Of a stretch of DNA of 21,999 bases, positions 5,397-21,952 are shown in pieces. The translations under genes and the position numbers were made by a program. Each line of letters begins with the position of its first letter. The first letter of the stretch is position 1. The DNA is from a virus, in the IMG/VR virus record IMGVR_UViG_3300030333_006922, positions 1 to 21,999 of that record. One strand, written 5' to 3'. The notes under the pieces are model-generated. The model ran no database searches and was not told the DNA's origin. It was given only the letters and a program-made list of their open reading frames with translations.

Positions 5397-5535
5397 TTTT
5401 TGGATTAATCAATTAAAACTTTATGAAGATGAGTTACATAGACAGGAGACAATGGAAGAAAGAGCAATTGTAAGACGAGACATTTATAAAACCCGTATAA
5501 AGATAAACGAGTTAGTCCGTGATCTTACAGATTAG
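5374..5535 (+). CDS. 53-residue charged helical protein, unknown
   Basis: Begins MDKNEEINFWINQLKLYEDELHRQETMEERAIVRRD. It is predicted to form two long helices able to make a coiled-coil hairpin. It overlaps the previous gene by 23 bases and the following lipoprotein start by 17. No function is suggested. Confidence 0.5.
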   Translation: MDKNEEINFWINQLKLYEDELHRQETMEERAIVRRDIYKTRIKINELVRDLTD

Positions 5536-5743
5536 CATAGTAGCAATTGCAATATTATTAAGTTCATGTGTATCGAGAGCAACTTGTTGGAAGATAATAA
5601 ATGGCGGTCAATGTGTGCCCATTCAATCATACGAAGAATGGAACAAATGTGTCATGCCTTGTGAAAACATAATTATAAGAAGTAAATCAAAACCTTACAA
5701 TCCAAATGACTGGGTTAGACCGAGACCATATGCATATCCATGA
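5519..5743 (+). CDS. small lipoprotein, Pro-rich C terminus
   Basis: 74 residues from a GTG start. Residues 2-15 are hydrophobic and end in L-S-S-C16, a good lipobox, so the protein should be cleaved at C16 and lipid-anchored. Four further Cys follow (C23, C32, C44, C48), and the end is KPYNPNDWVRPRPYAYP. A small, Pro-rich lipoprotein resembles an outer spanin (Rz1-like), but no inner-membrane partner overlaps it. The role could also be superinfection exclusion. No ATG exists in frame before the lipobox, so GTG is required. Confidence 0.55.
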   Translation: MILQISIVAIAILLSSCVSRATCWKIINGGQCVPIQSYEEWNKCVMPCENIIIRSKSKPYNPNDWVRPRPYAYP

Positions 5744-5921
5744 ATATTCTATCGAGACATTATATCACATAAAATGTGGTGAATGTCACAACTGGTGGAG
5801 TTATGCCCACACCCCTGACCTCACCTTTATTACAAATCATGATCCCAGATCATTCGCTAAAGACAGAAAAATGCACTGCCCGCATTGTGGAGTAGAAGGT
5901 GTATTGAAAACGATACAATGA
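5730..5921 (+). CDS. small zinc-ribbon phage protein
   Basis: 63 residues beginning MHIHEYSIETLYHIKCGEC. C16-x2-C19 and C50-x2-C53 (CPHCG) form a classic zinc ribbon with an HNWWSYA segment between. An upstream ATG at 5706 is also in frame but would overlap the lipoprotein more and add an unrelated 8 residues, so 5730 is chosen. Its stop overlaps the next ATG. Such proteins recur in phages without a known role. Confidence 0.7.
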   Translation: MHIHEYSIETLYHIKCGECHNWWSYAHTPDLTFITNHDPRSFAKDRKMHCPHCGVEGVLKTIQ

Positions 5922-6265
5922 AAAAATTAATAGTCATAATGTTGTTTTTACCTTCACTCTTATGGGCACACCCAGACGGTGCAACACCTTATTGGTACCC
6001 TGCAACATATATTTACGGGTTTGTAGAGGGATGTTGGAAAACAGTTGAAGAAAATCAATCATTGGCGAAAAGCATGTGGCCAGATGATATACGAGCAGTT
6101 TGTGGTTGTGCTATTGATGCGATTAGACATGCAATGCCTTTCCATGAAGCAGAGAGCCCAGATGCAGAGACAAAAGCAAAATTTGATTTCATTACTCAAG
6201 GTGTGCTTCCACAATGTATAATGGAAGTTGAAGCAGGTATCATGTTACGTAATGGTGAGAAATGA
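5918..6265 (+). CDS. secreted four-cysteine protein, unknown
   Basis: 115 residues. MKKLIVIMLFLPSLLWA is a clear signal peptide, probably cut before His18. The mature part has C39, C62, C64 and C100, enough for two disulfides in the periplasm, around FVEGCWKTVEEN and VCGCAIDAIRHAMPF. The ATG at 5918 overlaps the previous stop (ATGA). A role in the envelope, in lysis timing or in excluding other phages would fit, but none is shown. Confidence 0.7.
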   Translation: MKKLIVIMLFLPSLLWAHPDGATPYWYPATYIYGFVEGCWKTVEENQSLAKSMWPDDIRAVCGCAIDAIRHAMPFHEAESPDAETKAKFDFITQGVLPQCIMEVEAGIMLRNGEK

Positions 6266-6468
6266 ATATATGGGTAGAATATTACAAGTTTTCTGATGAT
6301 AGAAAAAACAATCATGCTCAAATGAAAGAGCAGGCAAAATGGACACCACCTGACCCAAGTATAGTTCATAAAAGATTTTGTCAAACAAAAAAAGAAGCAC
6401 AAGAATTAGCAAAGAGAATGTTTGAGGATGGGTATCATGTTACAATTAAAACAGATGGTATTGTATAA
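6262..6468 (+). CDS. 68-residue protein, unknown
   Basis: MNIWVEYYKFSDDRKNNHAQ... ends in a helix (KKEAQELAKRMFEDGY) and a strand (HVTIKTDGIV), giving a small alpha/beta fold. ATGA overlap with the secreted protein supports the start. It ends two bases before tRNA-Asn. No family is recognised. Confidence 0.65.
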   Translation: MNIWVEYYKFSDDRKNNHAQMKEQAKWTPPDPSIVHKRFCQTKKEAQELAKRMFEDGYHVTIKTDGIV

Positions 6469-6470
6469 AC

Positions 6471-6545
6471 TCCCTCGTAGTTCAGTGGTAGAACGGTAGA
6501 CTGTTAATCTGCTTGTCGTTGGTTCGAATCCAGCCGAGGGAGCCA
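6471..6545 (+). tRNA. tRNA-Asn (anticodon GTT)
   Basis: Acceptor TCCCTCG pairs with CGAGGGA, then G and an encoded CCA (6543-6545). The D arm is GTTC/GAAC. The anticodon stem GTAGA/TCTGC surrounds loop CTGTTAA, so the anticodon is GTT. The T arm is GTTGG-TTCGAAT-CCAGC. Asn codons (AAT, AAC) are common in this AT-rich genome. Confidence 0.95.
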
Positions 6546-6550
6546 GATTA

Positions 6551-6558
6551 AATAAATA
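6551..6558 (+). promoter_or_regulatory. possible late promoter box AATAAATA
   Basis: AATAAATA, one base from TATAAATA, lies in the 40-base gap between tRNA-Asn and the gene at 6586, 27 bases before its ATG. The sequence around it is so AT-rich that chance is a fair alternative. Confidence 0.35.
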
Positions 6559-6585
6559 AATTAAAACCTTTAACATATAAAAAAT

Positions 6586-6759
6586 ATGTCAAAAAAGAAA
6601 AAATTTAACATAACATCGGAAGAACTTTCTATTAAAGTTCAAGAGTATTTGGATAAAGGTGGCAAAATAAAAAAATATGAATGTTCTGTACCTGAAAATG
6701 CGAATTCTATTAAAAGAGAGAAAGAAGAATTTATTGTGGATGTAACTAATTATTCATGA
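6586..6759 (+). CDS. 57-residue basic protein, unknown
   Basis: MSKKKKFNITSEELSIKVQEYLDKGGKIKKYE... has a basic start, a helix, then a GGKIKKY turn and strand. The LDKGGKIKK pattern resembles small phage proteins with a helix-strand fold. The stop overlaps the next ATG (ATGA). No ribosome site is clear. Confidence 0.6.
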   Translation: MSKKKKFNITSEELSIKVQEYLDKGGKIKKYECSVPENANSIKREKEEFIVDVTNYS

Positions 6760-6935
6760 TCGTAAAATTTTCAATTTTTTTAACTTTAATTTTAGTTATA
6801 TTAAAACTTACAAATAATATAGATTGGGATTGGACTTTGATAACCCTTCCAGTATCAATTTCAATTGTTACTGGTATTTCTATTTTTTGTATTAGTCTTT
6901 TACTAAATAAAATTGAAAATAGTATTAAGGAATAA
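6756..6935 (+). CDS. 59-residue two-span membrane protein
   Basis: Residues about 4-18 and 27-50 are hydrophobic, joined by TNNIDWDW. The short tail LLNKIENSIKE is charged. It is coupled upstream by ATGA, and the next GTG start follows its TAA by one base. It could be a holin-like or envelope-modifying peptide; the sequence alone does not say. Confidence 0.6.
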   Translation: MIVKFSIFLTLILVILKLTNNIDWDWTLITLPVSISIVTGISIFCISLLLNKIENSIKE

Positions 6936-6936
6936 T

Positions 6937-7185
6937 GTGCCAAAAAAACCTAAAAAAATGACAAAAAAAGAAGCACATCAGTATATCAGTGCTTTAGATG
7001 AAGCCCCTCATATTATAAAATCAGCAAGAGAAATGATATCAAAATTACCAAAAGGTGAAATTAGAGATGATTTGATTAGAAAATTTTTAAATCTTAAAAA
7101 GGCATTAATTTCATTAGATGTAAAATTAGAAGATATTGAATGGTCAATTTGTCAAAAAATGGTAAAAGAATTAATGAATGAATAA
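6937..7185 (+). CDS. 82-residue basic helical protein, GTG start
   Basis: The GTG at 6937 has AAGGA at 6927-6931 and directly follows the previous stop, so it is preferred over an upstream TTG (6913) or the ATG at 6958. The first residues are KPKKPKK-like and basic; the rest is helical (MTKKEAHQYISALDE onwards). It ends 11 bases before the structured RNA at 7197. No family is recognised. Confidence 0.65.
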   Translation: MPKKPKKMTKKEAHQYISALDEAPHIIKSAREMISKLPKGEIRDDLIRKFLNLKKALISLDVKLEDIEWSICQKMVKELMNE

Positions 7186-7196
7186 GTTTTAACGAT

Positions 7197-7254
7197 GGCG
7201 CAGGGTTGGTCCTTGTAGATATCGGATCTGCACCCCCGCTACAAGGACCGCGCC
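7197..7254 (+). ncRNA. structured 5' leader RNA with 11-bp perfect stem
   Basis: GGTCCTTGTAG (7208-7218) pairs perfectly with CTACAAGGACC (7239-7249). Outside it, GGCGC (7197-7201) pairs with GCGCC (7250-7254), leaving a 6-base bulge. The 20-base loop holds ACCC (7232-7235), able to pair with GGGT (7203-7206) of the bulge to make a pseudoknot. It is strikingly GC-rich for this genome. The ribosome site of the next gene (AAGGA, 7260-7264) begins 5 bases after the helix, so control of that gene's translation is likely. No T-run follows, so it is not a normal terminator. Confidence 0.75.
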
Positions 7255-7269
7255 CCTATAAGGATTATA

Positions 7270-7404
7270 ATGGCAAAAGCAAAAGAAACTAAATTAAAAA
7301 ATAATACCTATAAAAGAACTTCTATAGGAAATTCTAGATGGTCTAGACCAAAAAATAAAAATAAACGTAAAAATTGGAAACGATATCGTGGCCAAGGAAA
7401 ATAA
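7270..7404 (+). CDS. small very basic phage protein (RTSIGNSRWSRPKNKNKR)
   Basis: 44 residues, about one third Lys and Arg. The stretch TSIGNSRWSRPKNKNKRKN, then WKRYRGQGK, is a signature I associate with a short protein conserved across many T4-like and other tailed phages; its role is unknown. The charge and the structured RNA immediately upstream suggest RNA binding and possible self-control, as for ribosomal proteins (inference). AAGGA lies 5 bases before the ATG. Confidence 0.75.
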   Translation: MAKAKETKLKNNTYKRTSIGNSRWSRPKNKNKRKNWKRYRGQGK

Positions 7405-7723: not shown

Positions 7724-7798
7724 GCCCTCATAGTTTAATGGATAAAACAAAAGACTTCTAATCTTTCGATCTAGGTTCGATTCCTGGTGAGGGTACCA
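7724..7798 (+). tRNA. tRNA-Arg (anticodon TCT)
   Basis: Acceptor GCCCTCA pairs with TGAGGGT (first pair G-U), then A and an encoded CCA (7796-7798). The D arm is GTTT/AAAC. The anticodon stem AAAGA/TCTTT surrounds loop CTTCTAA, anticodon TCT, reading AGA. AGA is the main Arg codon in the AT-rich genes here, which explains carrying this tRNA. The T arm is CTAGG-TTCGATT-CCTGG. Confidence 0.95.
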
Positions 7799-10628: not shown

Positions 10629-10814
10629 ATGAATGAATGTAAATATCTCTATGTTGTTAATGATGGTGAACTCGAGGTCGAAAGTGATCTTGAGGCAAAC
10701 GATTTTATCATTGCAAATAAGGATGGTATGATCGATGACATGCGTTCGGTTAGAGAATTGACTTCCTTGGAGCAAGTCGTATCCCCTGTTGAATCCTACA
10801 AAATAGTATTATGA
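10629..10814 (+). CDS. 61-residue acidic protein, unknown
   Basis: MNECKYLYVVNDGELEVESDLEANDF..., strand-rich and acidic (net charge about -10), with no motif. AAAGG lies 6 bases before the ATG. It is coupled to rnh by a 4-base overlap. Acidic phage peptides beside nucleases sometimes mimic DNA; that is speculation here. Confidence 0.65.
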   Translation: MNECKYLYVVNDGELEVESDLEANDFIIANKDGMIDDMRSVRELTSLEQVVSPVESYKIVL

Positions 10815-11668
10815 TATTACTTGATTATTCTCAGATCGTCATTGCAAATGTAATGATGAATACCAAAATGATGTCTGAAGATTTTATCAGACATTCCGTT
10901 CTTAATACGATCAGAATGTATCACACAAAATTTAAAGATGATTTTGGCGAAATGATTTTATGTTGTGATGGGTCTAATAATTGGCGTAGAGATACGTTTA
11001 AATATTATAAAGCATCGAGAAAAACAACAAGAGAAAAATCCGATTTTGATTGGAAAGAATTATTTCGTTTGTTGCATCAAATTAGAAGTGAGATAAGTGA
11101 AAATTTCCCTTATAAAGTAGTGCATATAAATAAGGCAGAAGCGGATGATATTATCGCAACTCTTGTTATGAAACGAGAACAAAAATTAAATGGTGTTTTA
11201 TCTGAACCTGAACCAGTTTTGATATTATCAAGTGATAAAGACTTTTTACAATTGCAAAAATTTGAAAATGTTAAGCAATATTCTCCTCTGAAGAAAAAAT
11301 TTATTTCTACAGAAAATCCAAATACTTTTCTTAAAGAGCATATATTAAAAGGTGATGTCAGTGATGGTGTTCCCAATTTTCTTTCATCTGATGATACATT
11401 TGTTTCTGATAAAAGACAAAAACCTCTTGCAAAGAAAAAACTTTCCGTATGGTCTGAACTTGATCCTGATGTATTTTGTGAAGGTGAAATGTTAAGAAAC
11501 TATAGAAGAAATGAGATGTTAATAGATTTGACTAAAATACCAGACTGGTTGCAGGAAAATATTGTGAATGATTATGCATCACAACCTAATATAGGAAGAT
11601 CTAAACTTTTCAATTATTTTGTTAAACATAAATTAAAAAATTTAATGGAGCATATTAATGAATTTTAG
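10811..11668 (+). CDS. rnh: T4-type RNase H / 5'-3' flap exonuclease
   Basis: 285 residues (T4 RNase H has 305). Metal-ligand acids are in family order: D5 (LLDYS), D53 (CCDGSNNWRR), E110-x-D112-D113 (EAEADDI region), D142-x-D144 (SSDKDF) and D185 in GDVSDGVPN. The family removes RNA primers and flaps from lagging-strand fragments with the T4 replisome and gp32. GDxSDGVPN is the helix-hairpin-type DNA contact. A YYKASR segment matches the arch region. All key acids are present, so it should be active. It starts in the ATGA overlap with the acidic peptide gene. Confidence 0.92.
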   Translation: MILLDYSQIVIANVMMNTKMMSEDFIRHSVLNTIRMYHTKFKDDFGEMILCCDGSNNWRRDTFKYYKASRKTTREKSDFDWKELFRLLHQIRSEISENFPYKVVHINKAEADDIIATLVMKREQKLNGVLSEPEPVLILSSDKDFLQLQKFENVKQYSPLKKKFISTENPNTFLKEHILKGDVSDGVPNFLSSDDTFVSDKRQKPLAKKKLSVWSELDPDVFCEGEMLRNYRRNEMLIDLTKIPDWLQENIVNDYASQPNIGRSKLFNYFVKHKLKNLMEHINEF

Positions 11669-11676
11669 GGGAATGT

Positions 11677-12150
11677 ATGGCTAAAATGACTTTTGAATAT
11701 TTTCAAGAATTAGAAAAATTAAAAGATAAAAATGAAATTATAAATTTTTTAAAAACGGCAAGCATTACGATAAAAGAAGTTATTAATATAAATTTTAATG
11801 AAAATGTTGTATTAGCCTTACCTCCAGGTACTCCTGATATTGAACGTAAAGAGCATCTTCATGATGGTGCCACATTAAATCATGAAATAAAAAAAATGTA
11901 TCTTTTTGTTGAAAGCATGTCACCAAATGTAACTAAACTCAAAAGAGAATCTTTATGGTTACAATTATTAGATATATTGCATCCAGACGAAGCAGACGAT
12001 TTGGTTCAAATGAAAGATAAAGTATTACATAAGAAATATAAAAATTTATCACAAGAAAATTGTCATTTAGCATTTCCTGAGTTTGTTGCAAAACCTAAAG
12101 GTCCCGAGAGAGATAGTAAAGGAAGATTTATTAAAAAGGAAAATAAATGA
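11677..12150 (+). CDS. DUF6433-like T4-type phage protein
   Basis: 157 residues. The core reads ALPPGTPDIE..., then YLFVESMSPNVTKLKRESLWLQLLDILHPDEADDLVQMKDK, and the end is PKGPERDSKGRFIKK. This layout (A-L-P-x-G-T-P, KRE-S-x-x-x-Q-L-L-(x)n-P-x-(D/E)-A, KDK) is one I associate with DUF6433 proteins of cyanophage-like T4 relatives, whose function is not known. It lies downstream of rnh with a strong AGGGGA site. It overlaps the nucleotidyltransferase start by 4 bases. Confidence 0.7.
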   Translation: MAKMTFEYFQELEKLKDKNEIINFLKTASITIKEVININFNENVVLALPPGTPDIERKEHLHDGATLNHEIKKMYLFVESMSPNVTKLKRESLWLQLLDILHPDEADDLVQMKDKVLHKKYKNLSQENCHLAFPEFVAKPKGPERDSKGRFIKKENK

Positions 12151-12809
12151 AAGTTTTGATGACATGTGCGGGTTTAAATAATGAGTTAAGACCAATAACA
12201 GATAGAATTAATAAATGTTTAATAGAAATAAATGGAAAAACAATACTTAGATCTAATTTAGATTGGTTACAAAAATATGACATAGATGAAGTTGTAATTA
12301 GTACAAAATATAATCATAATCAAATAGAAAGAGAATTAAAAAATTACATATCAAAATTTTCTATTAATTTGCATCATTTAAAAGAAATGACTGATACTAT
12401 GCATATTTTAAAAAATTTAAGTTATAAATTTGAAAATGATTTTATTTTTATGCATGGTGATAACTTATACAATTTTGATTTGGATGATTTTTTAAAATTT
12501 CATAAAAATTCAAAAAAAGATTTAACTATTCTTGCACATGAAACTCAAAAAGATTATAAAAATAAATCAATTATTAAATTGAATTCTGATGAAACAAAAA
12601 TTGAAAAAATAATTCCTAGAAGTCAAGGTAAATTTGTAAATAAAGTTTTAGCAACATCTGGTTTTCTTGTTGCTAAAAAAATAAATTATGATATAATCCA
12701 TAAAAACGATAAAAAAGTATTTGATCATTTTTTACCAAAAAATGTAGATAATATTAATTTTTTTAAATCTAATTCTGTAAAATTTTTCAACAATATTGAA
12801 AGTTTATGA
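12147..12809 (+). CDS. reduced NDP-sugar nucleotidyltransferase-like protein
   Basis: 220 residues with the GT-A-type NTP_transferase fold: MKVLMTCAGLNNELRPITDR, K23 in INKCLIEINGK, and the metal-binding HGD (G104-D105). In active enzymes the first loop reads AAGxGTRLxP; here GTR is replaced by N-N-E, so the phosphate-binding Arg is missing. It is also shorter than usual (240-300). The gene is far more AT-rich than its neighbours, suggesting separate origin. It may be an inactive relative, or an enzyme with altered chemistry supplying one of the glycosyltransferases. Confidence 0.75.
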   Translation: MKVLMTCAGLNNELRPITDRINKCLIEINGKTILRSNLDWLQKYDIDEVVISTKYNHNQIERELKNYISKFSINLHHLKEMTDTMHILKNLSYKFENDFIFMHGDNLYNFDLDDFLKFHKNSKKDLTILAHETQKDYKNKSIIKLNSDETKIEKIIPRSQGKFVNKVLATSGFLVAKKINYDIIHKNDKKVFDHFLPKNVDNINFFKSNSVKFFNNIESL

Positions 12810-13372
12810 ATGTCTTTTACTTAGATAAAAATCCTAAGTTGGCGGCAGAATTTCATTGCGATAAGCATGTAGTTAAAATGCTTATCGAATATGCACAACT
12901 TATGAGTACGGCTCATCGTGTTATGGACGGTGAAGAATGGTATGATAGAACCGCAAATAATAGAAGAATTAAAAGATGGAAACATCCTGATTCCGAGATG
13001 GATAAGATATTGTATCTTGCTTCTCATGTAAATCATCCAAGTGGTATTTGGCTTAGAAAAAGTACAAAACACTATGATTGGTTATATGAAATGTGGCTTC
13101 ATCTTCATGATGAATTTGTTTCAAGATACAATAAAAAACATTTGTCAAATACTAAACTTACAGAAATACTTTGTAAATATCCTGACAATATGCCAACTCT
13201 TCCTTGGGAAGATCCACCACCAGCAATGCCAGATCATTGTAAAATACATAATGATTCATTGGCCTCATATCGCAAATATTACATAACTGAAAAAGTTAGA
13301 TTTGCGACTTGGAAAACAGAAACACCTATTTGGTTTAAGGAAAAAAATGCCGACTTATGTTTTCAAATGTGA
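12806..13372 (+). CDS. conserved phage protein with HCDKHVVKM motif
   Basis: 188 residues. It starts MNVFYLDKNPKLAAEFHCDKHVVKMLIEYAQLM. The H17-C-D-K-H21 cluster and a later HPSGIWLRKS, then WEDPPPAMPDHCK, and YRKYYITEKVRFATWK are strongly conserved in a family seen in T4-like marine phages and some bacteria. His, Cys and Asp close together suggest metal or catalysis. No proven activity is known to me; relation to DNA-repair glycosylases is possible but unsupported by visible motifs. It overlaps its neighbours on both sides. Confidence 0.78.
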   Translation: MNVFYLDKNPKLAAEFHCDKHVVKMLIEYAQLMSTAHRVMDGEEWYDRTANNRRIKRWKHPDSEMDKILYLASHVNHPSGIWLRKSTKHYDWLYEMWLHLHDEFVSRYNKKHLSNTKLTEILCKYPDNMPTLPWEDPPPAMPDHCKIHNDSLASYRKYYITEKVRFATWKTETPIWFKEKNADLCFQM

Positions 13373-13595
13373 AAAATGTGAAAATGTTTTTGAAGAAAGT
13401 TTAAAATATGAAGATAGAGATTCGCCTACAGAACATCTGTGTCAAAAATGTGATGGAAATGTAATTAGAATTCCTGCGATGCCTCTTTTTGCTTATGATA
13501 ATGTTGGTAGTAAAAAACCAGATAATGCGTTCAATGATAAATTGAAAGAAATAAAGAGGACACATTATGGAAGTACCATCAACCCAATCGAATAA
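13347..13595 (+). CDS. FmdB-type zinc-ribbon protein (copy 2)
   Basis: 82 residues starting MPTYVFKCEKC. C8-x2-C11 and C32-x2-C35 make the zinc ribbon, and IRIPAMPLFAYDNVGSKK follows. AAGGA lies 4-5 bases before the ATG; an upstream in-frame ATG (13302) would lie inside the previous gene and lose the family start. It has the same family start as the 823-1041 protein but a different tail, so it is a paralog or separate acquisition. It overlaps the exonuclease gene by 29 bases. Confidence 0.84.
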   Translation: MPTYVFKCEKCENVFEESLKYEDRDSPTEHLCQKCDGNVIRIPAMPLFAYDNVGSKKPDNAFNDKLKEIKRTHYGSTINPIE

Positions 13596-14238
13596 TTTTA
13601 TTCATGAAAATATTTTAGGTGACATTGAACTTGATACTATAACAGAAAATGGTAAAAGGTGTTATGTCACGCCTACAGGTGAAAAATATCCATCAGTTAC
13701 TACAATTCTTTCCGATTATAAGAAAGACTCTATTATAGAGTGGAGAAAAAGAGTTGGCGAAAAAGAAGCCAACAAGATTTCTACTCAAGCATCTCGCCGA
13801 GGTACAAAAGTTCATAAATTATGTGAGGATTATCTCAATAATGAACTTTCCACAAAAGAATATACTCCTGACAATATAGAAATGTTTAGATCAATTCAAA
13901 GTATTCTTGATGACATTGAATTGGTTTATGCACAAGAAAGAACTTTATTTTCTCATCATTTGAAAACTGCTGGTAGAGTTGATTGTGTTGGTAAATTTCG
14001 TGGTAAGAGACATATTATTGATTTTAAGACTTCAAGTAAGCCTAAGAAAAAAGAATGGATTGACAATTATTTTATGCAAGGATCGGCGTATTCTGTAATG
14101 TGGGAAGAGATGACAAATATTCCTATTGCTTATATTGCAATTATAATTGCAGTTGCAGATGATCATCCACAAGTTTTTATAGAACATAGAGATAATTGGA
14201 TTAACAAATTCATAGAAATAAGAGGTAAATATGTCTGA
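13567..14238 (+). CDS. PD-(D/E)XK exonuclease (RecB/MGME1-like)
   Basis: 223 residues. All nuclease motifs are in order: RRGTKVHKLCEDYL (H83, E87), AGRVDC (D139), IIDFKTSSKPKKK (D152-x-K154) and YFMQGSAYSVMWEE (Q171, Y175). This is the Cas4/RecB-like fold of MGME1-type exonucleases, which digest single-stranded DNA ends and are common in T4-like marine phages. YPSVTTIL near residue 41 is also typical. GAGGA lies 7 bases before the ATG, inside the FmdB gene. The motifs are intact, so it should be active in replication or recombination. Confidence 0.9.
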   Translation: MEVPSTQSNNFIHENILGDIELDTITENGKRCYVTPTGEKYPSVTTILSDYKKDSIIEWRKRVGEKEANKISTQASRRGTKVHKLCEDYLNNELSTKEYTPDNIEMFRSIQSILDDIELVYAQERTLFSHHLKTAGRVDCVGKFRGKRHIIDFKTSSKPKKKEWIDNYFMQGSAYSVMWEEMTNIPIAYIAIIIAVADDHPQVFIEHRDNWINKFIEIRGKYV

Positions 14239-15025
14239 TGAAATTAAAATTTATCCAAACGACATTCAAAATTTAGAATATTCAAAAACACCGGAAGGTA
14301 AAGATTGGTTAAAAAGACTAAACAATAATAAAAAATATTGTCTTGAAGTCAACAAAAATACAAGGAGCGGATATTATTACCACTATTGCGTAGAAAATAT
14401 ACCAGGTAGTTCTGAGTATAAAAAACCATATCTGAAATACGATAATATTAATTATGATTATCTGAAATTTTTAGATTTAAAAATTTATCAAGGATGCTTT
14501 GACGAAGAATCATATAAACATGTTTTAAAAAACTTTTTAGTCAATAGGAAATGCTATGAAATATTTTACTCAAAAAGTTTAACAAAGTACAAAAGATTAC
14601 ATGTTACTTGTTGTCAACATGCTATAAAAGAATATAAAATGTTAAATGATTTTATAAATTTACATTTAGATGAAATACCTGATGGTACAATTTGTGCTGA
14701 TTATAATTATTTGAATGTGGCTTTAAAAATAAAAGATAAAACAGATTTTGAAAATTTCATAAAAAATGATTCTAAAAATAGTAAAAAATTTCCAGTAATA
14801 GAATATAGAGTTTCTTCTTCAGATGACGTAGGTGATGGTGCATGGAATTTTAATAATTTAATATACTATAAACATTTTATAAATGATTCTTCTATATTTT
14901 TTGATGAAGATCATCATAAAGACGACCGAAAAGGTACAGGTTTTTTTCTAAAAAGAAGCACTGGTCGACCAGTGCATGGAACTAAAAGTTTACCTTTTGG
15001 TGTAATTTATGATGGTTTAGTATGA
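14231..15025 (+). CDS. orphan 264-residue protein, unknown
   Basis: Very rich in Lys, Asn, Tyr and Asp. There is a YYHYCVEN and a VTCCQHAIKEY Cys-His segment around residues 50 and 126. The C-terminal part holds FFDEDHHKDDRKGTGFF, a dense His/Asp run that could bind metal. The end contains a perfect 18-bp palindrome in the DNA (14958-14975). No family is recognised. It is coupled to the exonuclease by an 8-base overlap yet much more AT-rich, which marks the left edge of the accessory cluster. Confidence 0.65.
   Translation: MSDEIKIYPNDIQNLEYSKTPEGKDWLKRLNNNKKYCLEVNKNTRSGYYYHYCVENIPGSSEYKKPYLKYDNINYDYLKFLDLKIYQGCFDEESYKHVLKNFLVNRKCYEIFYSKSLTKYKRLHVTCCQHAIKEYKMLNDFINLHLDEIPDGTICADYNYLNVALKIKDKTDFENFIKNDSKNSKKFPVIEYRVSSSDDVGDGAWNFNNLIYYKHFINDSSIFFDEDHHKDDRKGTGFFLKRSTGRPVHGTKSLPFGVIYDGLV
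14958..14975. repeat. perfect 18-bp palindrome inside a gene
   Basis: GCACTGGTCGACCAGTGC equals its own reverse complement, with no spacer. It is GC-rich in a very AT-rich gene, near that gene's 3' end and about 80 bases before the nitroreductase start. It could be a protein-binding site for control of the downstream cluster, or chance. Confidence 0.5.
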
Positions 15026-15054
15026 TATGATTTAATACATTTCTCAAGGAATTT

Positions 15055-15693
15055 ATGCAAGAAAACTTAAATTTGCACATAATAAAATCATCAGAATTAG
15101 CAGGAAAATGTCAAAGAAATTGGATCGATGAGCCAATTGATGAATTTGATTTGAGAACGATAGTAAATTCTGCAATGAATATGCCCACAAAACAAAATGT
15201 GAAAATGTATGAATTGGTAGTCGTACAAGATAAAAAAGCTAGAGAGTTTTTATATGATAGTTCAGGCGTTCCTGAACTTAATGATTTTACACGATGGAGG
15301 AATGGCCAAATGTTGGCTCCTACTATTTTAATGTGGTTTATATCTACTAACATTCCCGAATTTCATGAAGCCGAAGATTTTGATATTTCTACACAACATC
15401 GAGATTCAATTAATTTAAATACAGGAATATCAATGGGGGCCGCCGCATTGACTGCGACTCAATTAGGGTATAATGTAGGATTTAATTGTTGCGGTGATAA
15501 TGAGTCATATGGCCAATTAGGCAGGACAGTGAATAATGGTTTTAATGATTATTCTTTTATATGTGCCCTTGGAATAGGAAAACCGATGAAAGAGTTTTCT
15601 AGAAATATTGTTCCTAAAAATAAAAATTTAAATATTGATTTAACGGTGGCTACTGAAGAACATAAAAAAGAAAAAACAATTTATTATATATGA
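15055..15693 (+). CDS. nitroreductase-like flavoprotein
   Basis: 212 residues with the FMN nitroreductase layout: an N-terminal KCQRNWIDEPIDEFDLRTIVNSAMNMPTKQN region, NGQMLAPTILMWF in the middle, SMGAAALTATQLGYNVGFNCC, and the ending ICALGIGKPMKEFSRN (the LGIGxP strand-turn). Members use FMN and NAD(P)H to reduce nitro groups, quinones or enones, or to dehydrate or dehydrogenate peptides in natural-product pathways. AAGGA precedes the ATG. It overlaps the carbamoyltransferase by 4 bases, which points to a shared pathway rather than a stand-alone detoxifier (inference). Confidence 0.8.
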   Translation: MQENLNLHIIKSSELAGKCQRNWIDEPIDEFDLRTIVNSAMNMPTKQNVKMYELVVVQDKKAREFLYDSSGVPELNDFTRWRNGQMLAPTILMWFISTNIPEFHEAEDFDISTQHRDSINLNTGISMGAAALTATQLGYNVGFNCCGDNESYGQLGRTVNNGFNDYSFICALGIGKPMKEFSRNIVPKNKNLNIDLTVATEEHKKEKTIYYI

Positions 15694-17042
15694 TTAAATG
15701 GGGAACTACTTTTGGTTCTCATGATGGTGCATTAGCGGTTTTTCAAGATGATGAACTTGTATTTGCATCAGATGCAGAACGATGGTCGAGAAAGAAAAAC
15801 GATCCTACAATACCTGACAACCTAATTAGATTTGCAGAAGATAATTGGGGCATACCTGATCAGGTTCATTTTTACGAAGATTATACTCTTAAAACACAAC
15901 GTAGAGAGTTTGCTGGTCAAAGTCCTCTGAAACCTATACAGTTCAAATACAATACAATTAGTCATAATCATCATTGGTCTCATGCTCGTTATGGTTATTG
16001 GACATCTCCGTTTGATGAGTGTACAGTTCTTGTTGTTGATGCAATAGGTGAATGGGACACATTGACACAATGGAAAGTCAAGAACGATTTTGAATGTGTG
16101 AAGAGATGGAGATATCCAAAGTCAATAGGTCTATTCTATTCTGCAATGACACAAGCGGCTGGTTGGAAACCTAATGAAGAAGAATATATTCTCATGGGTG
16201 CTTCAGCAGTTAAAAAACACAAAATTGAAAATTACAATATTGTCAAAGAGTTGTGGGATAATGGTGCAAATTTTCATACAGGAATAAATATAAATTTTGA
16301 TAAGTTTGAGATTGCATCAATAGCACAAGAAATTTACGAAGAAGAGTTTAAGAAAATTATCGATGAGATAGAAGATGATAATCTTGTGTTTGTAGGTGGT
16401 TGTGCATTAAATGTCTCTGCAAATCGATTTCTCACAAAGTTCAATACATTTATACCATGCAATCCAGGTGATGGTGGATCTGCAATAGGTTGTGTGATTG
16501 ACAGAAAGATACCTGCAAATGCATATCTAGGTTATGAAATACCTGGCGAATATCCTGTAACAGAGATCATAAAAGAGTTAAAAGAACGAGGTATTGTAGG
16601 TGTTGCTAAAGGAAGAGCAGAATTTGGTCCAAGAGCATTAGGTAATAGATCATTATTAGCAGATCCATCTATTTTCAATATGAAACATCGTGTTAATTTA
16701 GTTAAAGGCCGTGAAGAATTTAGACCATTTGCACCTATGATTTTAAAAGAAGATGCTGATTTATTTTTTGAAGAGGGTATTTCATCACCTTTTATGAATA
16801 CAATTAGAAAAGCAAAACTTATAACATTGAAAAAATATCCAAGCATAGTTCATCTTGACGGCACTTCAAGATTACAAGAGGTAACAGAAGAACCACACAG
16901 AACATTATTGAAAGAATGGAAAAAAGAAACAGGATGTCCGATGCTATTGAATACATCACTCAATGTAAAAGGTGAACCTATTGTTAATACAGAAGAAGAT
17001 GTTAAAAATTTTGAGAGAAAAACAGGTGTAAGAGTCTTTTGA
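15690..17042 (+). CDS. NodU/CmcH-type carbamoyltransferase
   Basis: 450 residues. The N-terminal TsaD/Kae1-like domain starts with GTTFGSHDGALAVF (ASKHA phosphate loop) and carries the metal site H92-x-HH-W-SH98. A second ASKHA-type loop is FVGGCALNVSAN. The C-terminal carbamoyl-binding domain holds KGRAEFGPRALGNRSLLADP, then KGREEFRPFAP and LNTSLNVKGEPIV. The family makes carbamoyl-AMP from carbamoyl phosphate and ATP and transfers the carbamoyl to a hydroxyl of a sugar, antibiotic or, for some viral members, 5-hydroxymethylcytosine. It is shorter than most relatives (550-600). Codon use is less AT-biased than its neighbours. Confidence 0.92.
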   Translation: MIKWGTTFGSHDGALAVFQDDELVFASDAERWSRKKNDPTIPDNLIRFAEDNWGIPDQVHFYEDYTLKTQRREFAGQSPLKPIQFKYNTISHNHHWSHARYGYWTSPFDECTVLVVDAIGEWDTLTQWKVKNDFECVKRWRYPKSIGLFYSAMTQAAGWKPNEEEYILMGASAVKKHKIENYNIVKELWDNGANFHTGININFDKFEIASIAQEIYEEEFKKIIDEIEDDNLVFVGGCALNVSANRFLTKFNTFIPCNPGDGGSAIGCVIDRKIPANAYLGYEIPGEYPVTEIIKELKERGIVGVAKGRAEFGPRALGNRSLLADPSIFNMKHRVNLVKGREEFRPFAPMILKEDADLFFEEGISSPFMNTIRKAKLITLKKYPSIVHLDGTSRLQEVTEEPHRTLLKEWKKETGCPMLLNTSLNVKGEPIVNTEEDVKNFERKTGVRVF

Positions 17043-17043
17043 C

Positions 17044-17529
17044 ATGAAAATGAAAACTCGTTTTTTAAACGATTCAGATACTAAATTTGTGAGTGATTTT
17101 TGTGATGCATGTAAACAATTAGGATACTATAATAATTCTTCTTTAGAAAACATGAAATGGTATTGGAAAGATGTTAAATGGGTTGGAACATTTAAAGATG
17201 GAAAGATTATATCACTTAGCGGTATACATCCGTTTTTAGAAATGGGTGAAAATGCGTTTAGAATTATGTTTAGAGGAGCATCATTACCTGGATATAGTTC
17301 AACATTTCTGAATTTCGAACAAGTACCATTAAAAATACAATATGCTCTTTTATTATGTGAGAAACCTACTTTTTATGTCACATTTAATACATCAAAAAAT
17401 ACAGGAGCGAAAAGTTATAGAATGTCTAAAGCAATAAGTAGAAGAAATGATTTTTCTTTTGTAAAACATATGAATTACTTCAATACCATGCAAGAAATTT
17501 GGAAATATGAAAATAACAATATTCACTAG
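17044..17529 (+). CDS. probable GNAT-like acyltransferase fold protein
   Basis: 161 residues. WVGTFKDGKIISLSGIHPFLEMGENAFRIMFRGA has the strand-turn-strand rhythm of GNAT beta2-beta4, and FYVTFNTSKNTGAKSYRMSKAI resembles the late strand and helix of that fold. The acetyl-CoA pyrophosphate loop (R/Q-x-x-G-x-G/A) is not obvious, so activity is uncertain. It starts one base after the carbamoyltransferase stop (ATG at 17044; a second at 17050). Its last 23 bases overlap the ANL gene. If it is an acyltransferase, the adenylating enzyme next door might supply its acyl group (inference). Confidence 0.5.
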   Translation: MKMKTRFLNDSDTKFVSDFCDACKQLGYYNNSSLENMKWYWKDVKWVGTFKDGKIISLSGIHPFLEMGENAFRIMFRGASLPGYSSTFLNFEQVPLKIQYALLLCEKPTFYVTFNTSKNTGAKSYRMSKAISRRNDFSFVKHMNYFNTMQEIWKYENNNIH

Positions 17530-18118
17530 TGGAAGCACAGGTGAACAAAAAGCAGTAACACATAATGAAACCGATTTTTATAAACCTGCACAGTTTTTAT
17601 GTAACAAATGGAAATTAGATTCAAATGATATTATTTTAAATCCTTTCCCCACATGGACAATAGCACATTGGGCTTTCTGTTTTTTTCCTGCACAATTATC
17701 AAATTGTGAAGTTATCAACATTAATTTTGAACCTAAAAAATTTTGGAAACAAGTCGATGAAATAAGACCTACAGTTCTTACATTAGCAGTTAGAACAATG
17801 AACACGATGTTAAAATTGGAAACTCCAAATTTAACATTTATGAAAAATTTATGTACAGGTTCTGCACCTGTTACAGAACATCATCTAAGCATGATGAAAA
17901 AAACGGGGGCACAAAATTTATGGAATATTTACGGTTCTTCAGAATGTATACCTCCCGTAATGATGACTCAAGGAGTGTGTTTTGATTTTAAAGATACACC
18001 TTATTATTTGGAATACGATCAATCTCTTATTGTTGATGGCTTTGATACTGAAGATATTTTTATAGATAACCAATGTTTAAGCAGACCAAACTTAAATGAA
18101 ACATGGAAATCTAAATGA
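17507..18118 (+). CDS. miniature ANL (acyl-adenylating) enzyme
   Basis: 203 residues, against 500-650 for normal family members. It opens directly on the P-loop, TSGSTGEQKAVTH (residues 7-19, motif A3). It then has FPTWTIAHW (A4 region), CTGSAP (117-121), NIYGSSE (140-146, A5) and DTEDIF (180-185, A7-like Asp that holds the ribose). It lacks the whole first subdomain and the mobile C-terminal domain with the catalytic Lys (A10). ATP binding and adenylation of a carboxylate are plausible; thioester formation is not. The GNAT stop is 23 bases into the gene and radical SAM follows with ATGA, so the small size is real, not a broken frame. Confidence 0.85.
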   Translation: MKITIFTSGSTGEQKAVTHNETDFYKPAQFLCNKWKLDSNDIILNPFPTWTIAHWAFCFFPAQLSNCEVININFEPKKFWKQVDEIRPTVLTLAVRTMNTMLKLETPNLTFMKNLCTGSAPVTEHHLSMMKKTGAQNLWNIYGSSECIPPVMMTQGVCFDFKDTPYYLEYDQSLIVDGFDTEDIFIDNQCLSRPNLNETWKSK

Positions 18119-19161
18119 ATTTCTTGTGTAAACATCCTTTTATATACGTATCTATCACACCTGATGGTCATTATCAACTATGTCCTCATTCAAAAAAATT
18201 GAATCCAATTCATAATACAAAAAATACTTCATTACATGATTTTTTCTATAGTGAATATTCAAATAGTATAAGAGAGGATATGTTGGATGGTGTTATGAGT
18301 GATGATATTAAAGATATGTGTAGTGAATGCATAAATTTAGAGAAAAATAATTTACCATCACATAGAAGAATGTTATCTGATTTTAAAAAACCAGAAGTGG
18401 AAATTATTCATTTAAATAATATTGGTACTAAATGTAATTTAAAATGCATTAATTGTGGACCTGAAAGGTCATCTACATTCGGGCCTTTGATTGATAATTG
18501 GAACGAATTTGATTTAAGTCAAATTAAGAACATTAAAGAAATATGGGCTATAGGCGGAGAAGCCTTATTGATGAAAAGAACCAAAGACATTGTTGAACAA
18601 TCGAGTAATGATTCAACAGTATATATTGTTACTAATTCAACAACATTCCCTAAATGGATTTTAGATTATAAAGAAAAAATAACCATTGTCATGTCTATTG
18701 ACGGAATCGGAAAGGTCGATGAATATATACGAACAGGAACCATTTTTTCGAAAAAGATGAAAAATATGGATAAATTTGTTGAAAATTTTAATCATAGATT
18801 TGTTTTTACTTTGAATATGATTAACTATAGGTATATGAATGAAGTAATAGATTTTTTAAAAGACAGATATGATTATGATCTAAATGTGATAAACAGATTG
18901 CAAAACCCCCCTTTTTTAGATTGTGTTAATGTACCTGGTAATCATATAGGTCAACCGAATCATGATATTTTTTTGAAGGGTATTAGATTTTTAAAATTTT
19001 ATGATATTGAAAACGGTAAAAATTTACTTGATATATGTCCTGAATGGCAAACATTTTATGAAAAAGAAAATCCTCAACCTCACAATTTTTCCATGGCAAA
19101 CTTAACAATGGATATTCCACCATTAACCATTTATGATAGAAATGAATTAATAAATGTCTAA
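18115..19161 (+). CDS. radical SAM protein with N-terminal twitch/SPASM cluster (1)
   Basis: 348 residues. The core motif is C107-x3-C111-x2-C114 (CNLKCINC), holding the [4Fe-4S]-SAM cluster, with the GGEAL SAM-binding motif at 147-151 and a later MSIDG strand. Before the core, C5-x17-C23 and C69-x2-C72 supply a possible auxiliary cluster (LCKHPF...PDGHYQLCPH, CSEC), the reverse order to usual SPASM proteins. Such twitch-type radical SAM proteins occur in marine phages; substrates are unknown. It starts in the ATGA overlap with the ANL enzyme and ends in an overlap with the oxygenase. Confidence 0.88.
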   Translation: MNFLCKHPFIYVSITPDGHYQLCPHSKKLNPIHNTKNTSLHDFFYSEYSNSIREDMLDGVMSDDIKDMCSECINLEKNNLPSHRRMLSDFKKPEVEIIHLNNIGTKCNLKCINCGPERSSTFGPLIDNWNEFDLSQIKNIKEIWAIGGEALLMKRTKDIVEQSSNDSTVYIVTNSTTFPKWILDYKEKITIVMSIDGIGKVDEYIRTGTIFSKKMKNMDKFVENFNHRFVFTLNMINYRYMNEVIDFLKDRYDYDLNVINRLQNPPFLDCVNVPGNHIGQPNHDIFLKGIRFLKFYDIENGKNLLDICPEWQTFYEKENPQPHNFSMANLTMDIPPLTIYDRNELINV

Positions 19162-19717
19162 AATTTTTGATAATGGTTATTATATTTTTGACATACCAGA
19201 AAAATGGTCATTTGATGGTGAAAATGTAAATGAATATGAAGATTTATTATTTAATGATAATTGGTATTGGAAATGTAAGATACAGAAAAATGTAAAAAAT
19301 AAATCAATTTTGAATATTTTTAATAAATATGAGCCAATTATCGCAGATATTATACGGAAAGATTATGGCATAGATTTTACAATATCTACTGAATTATCTT
19401 TGACCTCTATCATATATTATGATGAAAAAAAATCATCACATGACATACATAAAGATTATGGTATTTTTACTATGCTTTTGAACGATGATAGTCCCAATTG
19501 TTTATTTTATCTTGATGAAACTTGGAAACTTATGAATATAAATAAGAATAGTATTGTTATATTTGCAGGTGAAGAGTTGGAAAAAATATGTGATGTATCT
19601 GCAATAGAGCATAAGGTAGAAAAATCAGAAAACTTTTGTAGATTTTCTGCTACCAGAATAGTTTGGCCTGTAAATAAAAAAGATGAATTGGCTAATAAAA
19701 AATTAACTTGGATTTAA
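19154..19717 (+). CDS. 2OG-Fe(II) oxygenase, IPNS-type motif
   Basis: 187 residues. H99-x-D101 in HKDYGIFTMLL matches the HxDyGxLTLL of isopenicillin N synthase-type dioxygenases. H153 (AIEHKV) completes the iron triad, and R163-x-S165 (RFS) is the 2-oxoglutarate carboxylate site. The protein is shorter than plant and fungal relatives (280-350), keeping mainly the jelly roll. It likely hydroxylates or desaturates a substrate using oxygen and 2OG. It lies between two radical SAM genes with an 8-base overlap upstream. Confidence 0.82.
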   Translation: MSKIFDNGYYIFDIPEKWSFDGENVNEYEDLLFNDNWYWKCKIQKNVKNKSILNIFNKYEPIIADIIRKDYGIDFTISTELSLTSIIYYDEKKSSHDIHKDYGIFTMLLNDDSPNCLFYLDETWKLMNINKNSIVIFAGEELEKICDVSAIEHKVEKSENFCRFSATRIVWPVNKKDELANKKLTWI

Positions 19718-19718
19718 T

Positions 19719-20513
19719 ATGTCAAATATAGAAACAAATCCCTATGATAAAGTTGCACGAGAGATATTAGACACTGGTTGGTTTGAAGATAGTAAATCAG
19801 ATTATAATTCGATGTTTTTCAAACACGTAACTCATAGTGGAGAATTACATGTTCTTGACATAGGTTCACACTTGGGTCTTTGGGCTTTGAGAATTTTAGA
19901 ATATTCTAAAAATAATAATATCAGTACAAAAATGTTATGCGTAGATCCCTGCATAGATTCAACAGATTCTTTTGAATCTAATACTAGTGAATATTCTTCT
20001 CTAATAGAACATTTTGAGTTGGCGATAACCGATGAAACTGAAAATACTCTTTATATCAAACACCTTGAACAAAACAGTTTAGGTTCAATTCAGATTTCTC
20101 CTATGATTCGAAATACTATAGTTGATGAAATGGCGGTGTCAGGTCCTCCAGGTCCAGATTTGTATCCTAATGAAATAGTTTTAGGTGTTGCTCAGACTGT
20201 GACCGCTCAAAAAATAATAACAGAATATTCTCAAAACATTTCACCATCTTCTTTGAATGCGGTAGTGTGTTATGCCTGTGGTTATGAATATCAGATTTTA
20301 AAATCTTTACAATTTTTGTTTAACTCTAGTCAGCCTATTGCATATATCTTTCAGTTATATGACAACACATTGCAACAATGTGGTTCTTCCTTGAGTGAGG
20401 TATTAAGTTATATGGAATCTCACGGATTTAATTATGAAAAAACAAATTTGCATTATGCAATTTCCCATAACAACAATCATTTGGATCATACTTATTATAC
20501 CTTTTATAAATGA
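19719..20513 (+). CDS. FkbM-like SAM-dependent methyltransferase
   Basis: 264 residues. VLDIGSHLGLWAL (45-57) is SAM motif I and CVDP (74-77) ends the second strand. The overall spacing is that of FkbM O-methyltransferases, which often act on sugars or peptides. The family's late DxEGxE motif is changed to C-Y-A-C-G-Y-E (184-190), keeping only the GxE part. A GPPGPDLYP loop near 142-150 is unusual. It begins one base after the oxygenase stop. It probably methylates the cluster's product, or is altered in substrate or catalysis. Confidence 0.75.
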   Translation: MSNIETNPYDKVAREILDTGWFEDSKSDYNSMFFKHVTHSGELHVLDIGSHLGLWALRILEYSKNNNISTKMLCVDPCIDSTDSFESNTSEYSSLIEHFELAITDETENTLYIKHLEQNSLGSIQISPMIRNTIVDEMAVSGPPGPDLYPNEIVLGVAQTVTAQKIITEYSQNISPSSLNAVVCYACGYEYQILKSLQFLFNSSQPIAYIFQLYDNTLQQCGSSLSEVLSYMESHGFNYEKTNLHYAISHNNNHLDHTYYTFYK

Positions 20514-20524
20514 CTTAAATTAAT

Positions 20525-21952
20525 GTGATTATTGATAAAGACCCTGATAATTTACCTTCATCTACTTTTTGTGCATTGCCTTGGATGCACATCTCTACAA
20601 GACCGAATGGACATATGCGTGTATGTTGTACTGCAAATGCATCTGCCGTTCAAGACAAAGATTCAACAAACAAAACAGTTTCAGAAGCAGGTGTGCTTAG
20701 AAGAGATGACGGCAAACCTGCTAATCTAGCAACAACAAGTTTGCTTGATGCTTGGAACAACGAGTACATGAAGTCGGTTCGCAGAATGATGTTAAAGGGT
20801 GAAAAACCTGATTCATGTCTTAAATGCTTTAAGGAAGAAGATGCAGGTCATAGAAGCAAAAGACAATGGGAAACGGCTAAGTGGGTACATGAACTTGGTC
20901 TGGAAGACATTATTGGTGAGACTCAAGAAGATGGATCCATTCCGCCTAGAGTCAGATATATTGATTTGCGCCTGGGTAGTAAGTGCCAGTTGGCATGTGT
21001 TATGTGTAGTCCTCATGACTCTTCTTCTTGGGTGAAAGAATACAAACAAATTTATCCTGAATTAAAGAATAGCAGATTAAGAGATTCGCAAGAATGGGAA
21101 AAAGACTCTGGTAAGTTAGCATGGTCTGGTGGTTCATATGCTTGGCATAAATCAAATCCTACATTTTGGGATGAGTTTTGGACACAAGTACCTACACTTA
21201 GACAATTGTATTGGGCAGGTGGTGAAGCACTTATAATGAAAGAACATTACATGGTGCTTGAAAAAATCATTGAGATGGGTTATGCAAAGAATATAGAAGT
21301 TCGTTACAACTCAAATGGTCTTGAATGGGATGACCATCTTTTTGACTTGTGGAAAGAGTTTAGAAATGTTATATTTCATTTTAGTATAGACTCATATGAA
21401 GACAAGAATCATTTTATTCGATATCCATCAAATTGGGAACAAGTTATAACTCAATTAGAAACTCTTGACAATTATCCGCATGGAAATCTTAGACTCACTA
21501 CTGCAACAACAATACTTGCTCTTAATATATTTTATTTACCTGACTTCATAAAATGGAAGTTAGAACGTGACTGGAAATTACTGAACAAATTTCCTGCTGG
21601 TGCTGGTATGATAGATTTACATCTCGCATACTGGCCACCTCAATTGAATTGTAAGGTATTGCCTAAGTGGTTTAAACAAGAGGTGACAGAAAAATTTGAA
21701 GACTTCTATCCATGGCTTGAAGAAAACTGGAGAAAGTGTAACGGTGTTTCAGACATAAACTTTGAGCAATGGCGTGAATTGCCGTATGGTATAAAAAGAC
21801 TAGAAGGTCTTGTATCTTTTATGAATTCAGAAGATTGGTCTGAGCGTTTACCCGAAACTGCTGAATGGTGTGGCACGATAGCAAAAAGACGAAAGTTAGA
21901 TTTTCTAAAAATATTTCCTGATTTAGAATGGTTGGAGTGGTATGCAAATTGA
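20525..21952 (+). CDS. radical SAM protein with N-terminal twitch/SPASM cluster (2), GTG start
   Basis: 475 residues. C154-x3-C158-x2-C161 (CQLACVMC) is the radical SAM site, and WAGGEAL follows. The N-terminal C16-x17-C34 and C98-x2-C101 repeat the exact first spacing seen in the 18115 protein (FCALPWMH, PNGHMRVCC, CLKC), so the two are paralogs. GTG at 20525 is needed to keep the FCALPW region; an ATG two bases earlier is followed at once by TGA. Codon use is less AT-biased than the 18115 paralog. The C-terminal third is Trp-rich and unmatched. It overlaps the next gene by 11 bases. Confidence 0.87.
   Translation: MIIDKDPDNLPSSTFCALPWMHISTRPNGHMRVCCTANASAVQDKDSTNKTVSEAGVLRRDDGKPANLATTSLLDAWNNEYMKSVRRMMLKGEKPDSCLKCFKEEDAGHRSKRQWETAKWVHELGLEDIIGETQEDGSIPPRVRYIDLRLGSKCQLACVMCSPHDSSSWVKEYKQIYPELKNSRLRDSQEWEKDSGKLAWSGGSYAWHKSNPTFWDEFWTQVPTLRQLYWAGGEALIMKEHYMVLEKIIEMGYAKNIEVRYNSNGLEWDDHLFDLWKEFRNVIFHFSIDSYEDKNHFIRYPSNWEQVITQLETLDNYPHGNLRLTTATTILALNIFYLPDFIKWKLERDWKLLNKFPAGAGMIDLHLAYWPPQLNCKVLPKWFKQEVTEKFEDFYPWLEENWRKCNGVSDINFEQWRELPYGIKRLEGLVSFMNSEDWSERLPETAEWCGTIAKRRKLDFLKIFPDLEWLEWYAN

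Follow-up and report, generated by a model that had tools for sequence, protein, structure and literature searches.

A putative intercistronic regulatory RNA with two conserved modules in a clade of uncultured T4-like phages

We found that a GC-rich hairpin in a tight intergenic gap of the window (the whole stretch of 21,999 nt analysed here, positions 1 to 21,999 of the IMG/VR virus record IMGVR_UViG_3300030333_006922) belongs to an element whose main stem, P2, differs in sequence between related phages and nevertheless spans the same number of positions in all of them, with pairing largely kept. By sequence comparison it is a structured RNA motif, with compensatory changes in seven pairs of P2 and one pair of a short apical helix, P3, and it appears to represent a new regulatory RNA of phages, covered by no Rfam 15 family. 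Two conserved modules can be recognised among the aligned members, P1 with the AGGG bulge on one side and P3 with the AUCUGCACCC loop and the 3' CC on the other, with P2 apparently serving as a spacer. We give about an even chance to the reading that this is an intercistronic, probably cis-acting regulatory RNA which would act post-transcriptionally on its own polycistronic phage message, and we prefer it to a trans-acting RNA or a 3' processing or stabilising element, which are weighed below.

The sequence-only reading had described a perfect 11-bp stem and a 5-bp outer stem across a 6-base bulge at 7197-7254, and this hairpin is present as described: GGCGC (7197-7201), the AGGGTT bulge (7202-7207), P2 GGTCCTTGTAG (7208-7218), a loop (7219-7238), CTACAAGGACC (7239-7249) and GCGCC (7250-7254). 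The ribosome site that it had placed 5 bases beyond the fold was likewise confirmed (AAGGA, 7260-7264), and the ATG at 7270 lies 15 bases past the hairpin end. Two details had to be revised: the loop is indeed 20 nt long but not wholly unpaired, as it contains the 3-bp helix P3 (7223-7225 / 7236-7238), and the bounds are right for the hairpin, but the full element is wider (7195-7256), with the AU ahead and the CC behind likewise invariant. For 86 nt the minimum free energy fold is this same hairpin at -28.9 kcal/mol; its z-score is -1.6, and an equally good fold was reached by 15 of 200 dinucleotide-shuffled copies. Among the perfect hairpins of the 46.5-kb record P2 ranks second by strength, and the combination of an 11-bp stem and an adjoining 5-bp stem, which the record contains once, also turned up in 11 of its 300 shuffled copies. 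Given these three figures (z-score, fold shuffles and stem shuffles), the hairpin is real yet statistically weak as a single sequence, being modestly unusual, and the case rests on comparison. The parts of the element are as follows; R1 is a covariance model built from six members with the window left out.

7195-7256, plus strand: whole conserved element, 62 nt (AUGGCGCAGGG...GCGCCCC), matched by R1 at 62.2 bits, E = 7.3e-11
7197-7201, plus strand: P1 5' strand GGCGC, always paired and invariant in 7/7 distinct sequences
7202-7207, plus strand: 5' bulge AGGGUU, with AGGG invariant and then 1-2 variable bases (alignment A3)
7208-7218, plus strand: P2 5' strand, 11 nt, both-sided changes in 7/11 pairs, as many in 0/500 shuffles
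7219-7222, plus strand: variable 5' bulge separating P2 from P3, 4 nt in the window and 5 nt in relatives (alignment A3)
7223-7225, plus strand: P3 5' strand CGG (UGG in relatives), outer pair changed from U-A to C-G, compensatory
7226-7235, plus strand: terminal loop AUCUGCACCC, 10/10 identical in all members
7236-7238, plus strand: P3 3' strand CCG (CCA in relatives), other half of the compensatory outer-pair change
7239-7249, plus strand: P2 3' strand, 11 nt, covarying with the 5' strand
7250-7254, plus strand: P1 3' strand GCGCC, invariant
7255-7256, plus strand: CC after P1, invariant (alignment A3)

Relatives were located through the T4-type RNase H gene of the window (10811-11668), which gave 79 related viral loci whose gene orders were compared. 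In some of these RNase H-linked relatives, homologs of the window genes starting at 6586, 6756 and sometimes 6937 are followed by the element with a different P2 sequence. Further members came from pattern scans, and R1 matches not only the held-out window element but all other members as well. The concern that the element might occur in this contig alone is removed by 12 other viral contigs and one contig in a bacterial MAG that carry it. An exact-pattern scan of bacterial and archaeal genomes gave a single true member, located at 475-536 of contig L250 in a GTDB MAG labelled Chloroflexi NAT137; as the phage clade has the same neighbour genes, L250 most likely represents viral DNA that was binned wrongly. 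Broader pattern scans returned many GC-rich chance matches, and the covariance model was passed by the same clade and L250 only. An exact-stem search of viral contigs yielded no match, as expected given the variability of P2, and BLAST against 50,697 phage records left the window element unmatched and gave nothing beyond chance matches for that of relative L059. When 0.88 Mb of DNA from related phages was searched with a descriptor of the structure alone, no convincing analog with another sequence emerged. An improved model with P3 included (R2) added no member from 0.52 Mb that comprised stretches of Melnitz-3 and HTVC008M, and no searched record contained a second copy. The carriers are best read as a clade of uncultured T4-like phages related to the Melnitz/HTVC008M type, and they are apparently marine, judging from their phage relatives rather than from sample records.

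The covariation alignment comprises 11 members with 7 distinct sequences, all from one clade. The consensus reads P1 GGCGC/GCGCC, bulge AGGG(N)1-2, P2, a bulge of 4-5 nt, P3 [U/C]GG/CC[A/G] and loop AUCUGCACCC. P1 shows no variation in the distinct sequences, its pairing being kept throughout, and P2 spans 11 positions in every one of them. The observed numbers of paired cells and of both-sided pair changes and the covariation score were reached by none of 500 shuffles, and no slid register of the alignment came near the observed covariation. The compensatory changes that the sequence-only reading had proposed to look for are present, in relatives located by gene order and pattern scans. Pairing in P2 is not perfect everywhere: three close relatives carry one mid-stem mismatch each, and another relative is mismatched elsewhere in the stem. 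P3, which is UGG/CCA in the relatives and CGG/CCG in the window, was obtained with RNAalifold and, independently, when single sequences were folded. The comparison of the window with relative L056 illustrates the pattern, as P1, the AGGG bulge, the loop and the flank bases are identical at 28/28 positions, while only 8/22 positions of P2 are identical and the stem is still fully paired. The fold is compact and stable, at about -24 to -28 kcal/mol. Regarding the strand, the signal is mixed, with a sense U-G pair in three distinct sequences and A-C mismatches, which correspond to G-U on the opposite strand, in two. The pair counts leave the strand undecided, and the coding-strand orientation is the one we infer from the co-directional neighbour genes.

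For the pseudoknot suggested by the sequence-only reading, in which the ACCC of the loop could pair with the GGGT of the bulge, the six GGG/CCC positions are invariant among the members. The fourth pair of this candidate, between the U of GGGU and the A of ACCC, is impossible in the relatives, which carry an A at that position, and the candidate pseudoknot would there amount to GGG:CCC at most. Even this docking would be strained, because in ideal A-form geometry the 3' strand atop the 11-bp P2 and the 5' strand at the P2 base are ~40 A apart, and the linker available to bridge this span measures 3 nt, or 0 nt once P3 has formed.

A search of Rfam 15 at gathering thresholds gave four tRNAs only for the window and nothing but tRNA for the relatives, and at E up to 10 there were only weak, chance-level matches in both, so that the earlier statement that the fold belongs to no known riboswitch class holds for window and relatives alike. 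The four tRNA genes of the window (Trp, Cys, Asn, Arg) are located at 410-559, 6471-6545 and 7724-7798. With the intrinsic terminators of phage operons the element shares a GC-rich intergenic hairpin, but it differs from them in its invariant loop and bulge and in that no U-tract follows the hairpin; a riboswitch expression platform was not apparent either, with neither a terminator in the window scan nor a consistent Shine-Dalgarno pairing across the members. In T4-type phages mRNA elements precede genes, namely the autoregulatory pseudoknot of gene 32 and the translational operator hairpin of gene 43 (PMC3014915). These resemble the element in that a compactly folded RNA precedes a gene and loop bases are conserved, which in T4 have a role in recognition (PMC3014915), but the element adjoins neither gene, is flanked by genes for small proteins, has a two-module architecture with an 11-bp stem and contains a pseudoknot only as a candidate. 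The manA and wcaG motifs (RF01745, RF01761) are structured candidate regulators almost entirely confined to marine metagenomes and T4-like phages (PMC2864571); their position and host group are similar, but the neighbours of the element are small proteins and not sugar or photosynthesis genes. For the Melnitz-like phages, the nearest cultured relatives, a glutamine (glnA-type) riboswitch has been reported (PMC9004378), but the element has no Rfam match and is absent from Melnitz-3 and HTVC008M. By the tests run it belongs to none of manA, wcaG, the T4 operators and the glutamine riboswitch. Structured RNAs are poorly catalogued for phages of streamlined marine bacteria, and several orphan motifs come from such phages; the element offers a sharp consensus, a secondary structure supported by covariation and a spacer helix of constrained length.

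The element is always located in a tight intergenic gap on the coding strand with co-directional genes on either side; the stop codon of the preceding gene is 1-18 nt away and the next start 14-37 nt (from the coordinates of all members). The following genes surround it in the window:

6586-6759, plus strand: small gene belonging to the upstream module (KKxFxIxxxxLxxKIxEYLxKGGKIxKxEC), carried by 13/13 viral records with the element
6756-6935, plus strand: small probable membrane protein gene, whose homologs in most relatives immediately precede the element; the protein of one relative matches PHROG 1374
6937-7185, plus strand: small gene between the membrane-protein gene and the element, so placed only in the window and L056; L080 and L081 have the gene without the element
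7270-7404, plus strand: 44-aa basic peptide gene, adjoining the element only in this genome

Searches with the upstream 6586 family and with a family of ~84 aa encoded downstream of the element in the relatives led to the same 12 viral contigs, all of which carry the element. Counting the window, the viral records with the upstream gene have the element in 13/13 cases and the ~84-aa gene in 12/13. The latter has no match in the 46.5 kb of the window's phage, and an AlphaFold model of its protein (pLDDT 71) gave no significant fold match; in L056 (viral record G014, 11234-11470) it contains an in-frame TAA, due to a sequencing error or to decay. The immediate neighbours are thus exchanged and the element is kept, with a membrane-protein or 6937-type gene upstream and the ~84-aa gene or the 44-aa peptide downstream. 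Regarding the wider gene order at 5519-7404, the module 6586-7256 follows the genes at 5519-6468 in the window and precedes them in the relatives, and in L055, whose endolysin is 97% identical, the module genes are unmatched between the flanking genes.

P2 is free in sequence and fixed in length at 11 positions, about one A-form turn, an anatomy that suggests two recognition modules held one helical turn apart. In the intercistronic reading a protein of the phage or the host, or else a small ligand, would contact both modules simultaneously, or the modules would dock together, and binding would alter translation or processing at the junction of the preceding gene and the next start codon. Since the window keeps every invariant base despite its different downstream gene, the function is probably independent of the identity of the downstream protein. 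The window scan showed no U-tract terminator or promoter-like site at the element, and neither Shine-Dalgarno sequestration nor translational coupling through P1 gave a consistent pattern across the members computed; the mechanism by which the element would influence expression is therefore one that we infer. A narrower and tentative version, to which we lend rather little credence, is a new phage-borne aptamer class in which the two modules one turn apart would form a single site for a metabolite or host protein. If true, it would mean that uncultured marine T4-like phages time an operon junction by sensing the host.

The exchange of both neighbours around a retained element is also what would be expected of an autonomous unit, and a trans-acting small RNA, excised or separately transcribed, is possible while well short of probable. 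Its AGGG bulge and AUCUGCACCC loop would act by base-pairing with RNAs of the host or the phage, or by titrating a host protein, consistent with the invariant unpaired bases and the compact stable fold, but the window scan gave neither a promoter-like nor a terminator-like site at the element, the gaps are always tight and co-directional, and a second copy is absent from the searched records. The strict linkage to the upstream module, in 13/13 viral records, and the upstream stop codon, which in all members lies closer than the next start, point instead to the preceding small genes, whose messages the element could end or separate as a processing or stabilising structure, such as an exonuclease barrier of the 3' UTR type. 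We hold this to be unlikely, as mere protection leaves the strict invariance of loop, bulge and P1 unexplained and the stem has no U-tract behind it.

Compensatory changes can also keep a DNA hairpin, and the mixed strand signal together with the altered module order of the window would fit a single-stranded or cruciform structure for replication or recombination. Such a DNA-level role is very improbable in view of the invariably intergenic position in coding orientation between co-directional genes, and neither an origin feature nor a recombinase linked to inverted repeats was recognised.

The sequence-only reading had considered an autoregulatory RNA or a small-molecule-sensing leader possible. 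In the former case the RNA would be the target of the 44-aa basic peptide encoded directly downstream, in favour of which stand only that the two are adjacent in the window and that the peptide is very basic. Relatives of this protein, which the sequence-only reading had called conserved, are encoded in 47 viral loci and in Melnitz-3 and HTVC008M. The widespread family of small basic proteins, marked by a TSxG motif and by a tail, NKxKRKNWKRYRGQG[K/R], that hardly varies, occurs in very different phage lineages, and some of its members weakly match PHROG 516. The expected conservation of the element upstream of homologs of the 7270 gene was not borne out: the covariance model detected none there, in representatives of near-identical groups, and none in the Melnitz-3 and HTVC008M genomes. 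In the closest peptide homologs (L002-L008) a tRNA-Thr takes the place of the element directly upstream of the gene, and in L009, L010 and remoter homologs nothing comparable is found upstream; conversely, the 12 other element-bearing viral contigs lack the peptide and have the ~84-aa gene downstream. Because element and peptide occur apart in the relatives, autoregulation by the peptide is not a conserved function and we retain hardly any belief in it; the element-peptide junction looks like a joint formed by recombination in this genome. Adjacency in a single genome can thus point to the wrong partner, here a peptide gene apparently joined by rearrangement.

A leader peptide read from the first element base (ATG GCG CAG ...) was rejected as next to impossible: the ATG is invariant and a frame of 28-42 codons is open in most close relatives, but the frame is not kept among the members, since the conserved loop falls in other frames in L056 and in the window, where the frame ends after 7 codons, and no Shine-Dalgarno sequence is visible ahead of the ATG.

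Outside the element, the window carries at 12147-21952 a run of metabolic genes that is unusual for a phage, coding for a nucleotidyl transferase, a nitroreductase, a carbamoyltransferase, a short AMP-binding enzyme and two radical SAM proteins, one of them with SPASM, which possibly make up a small biosynthetic or modification pathway.
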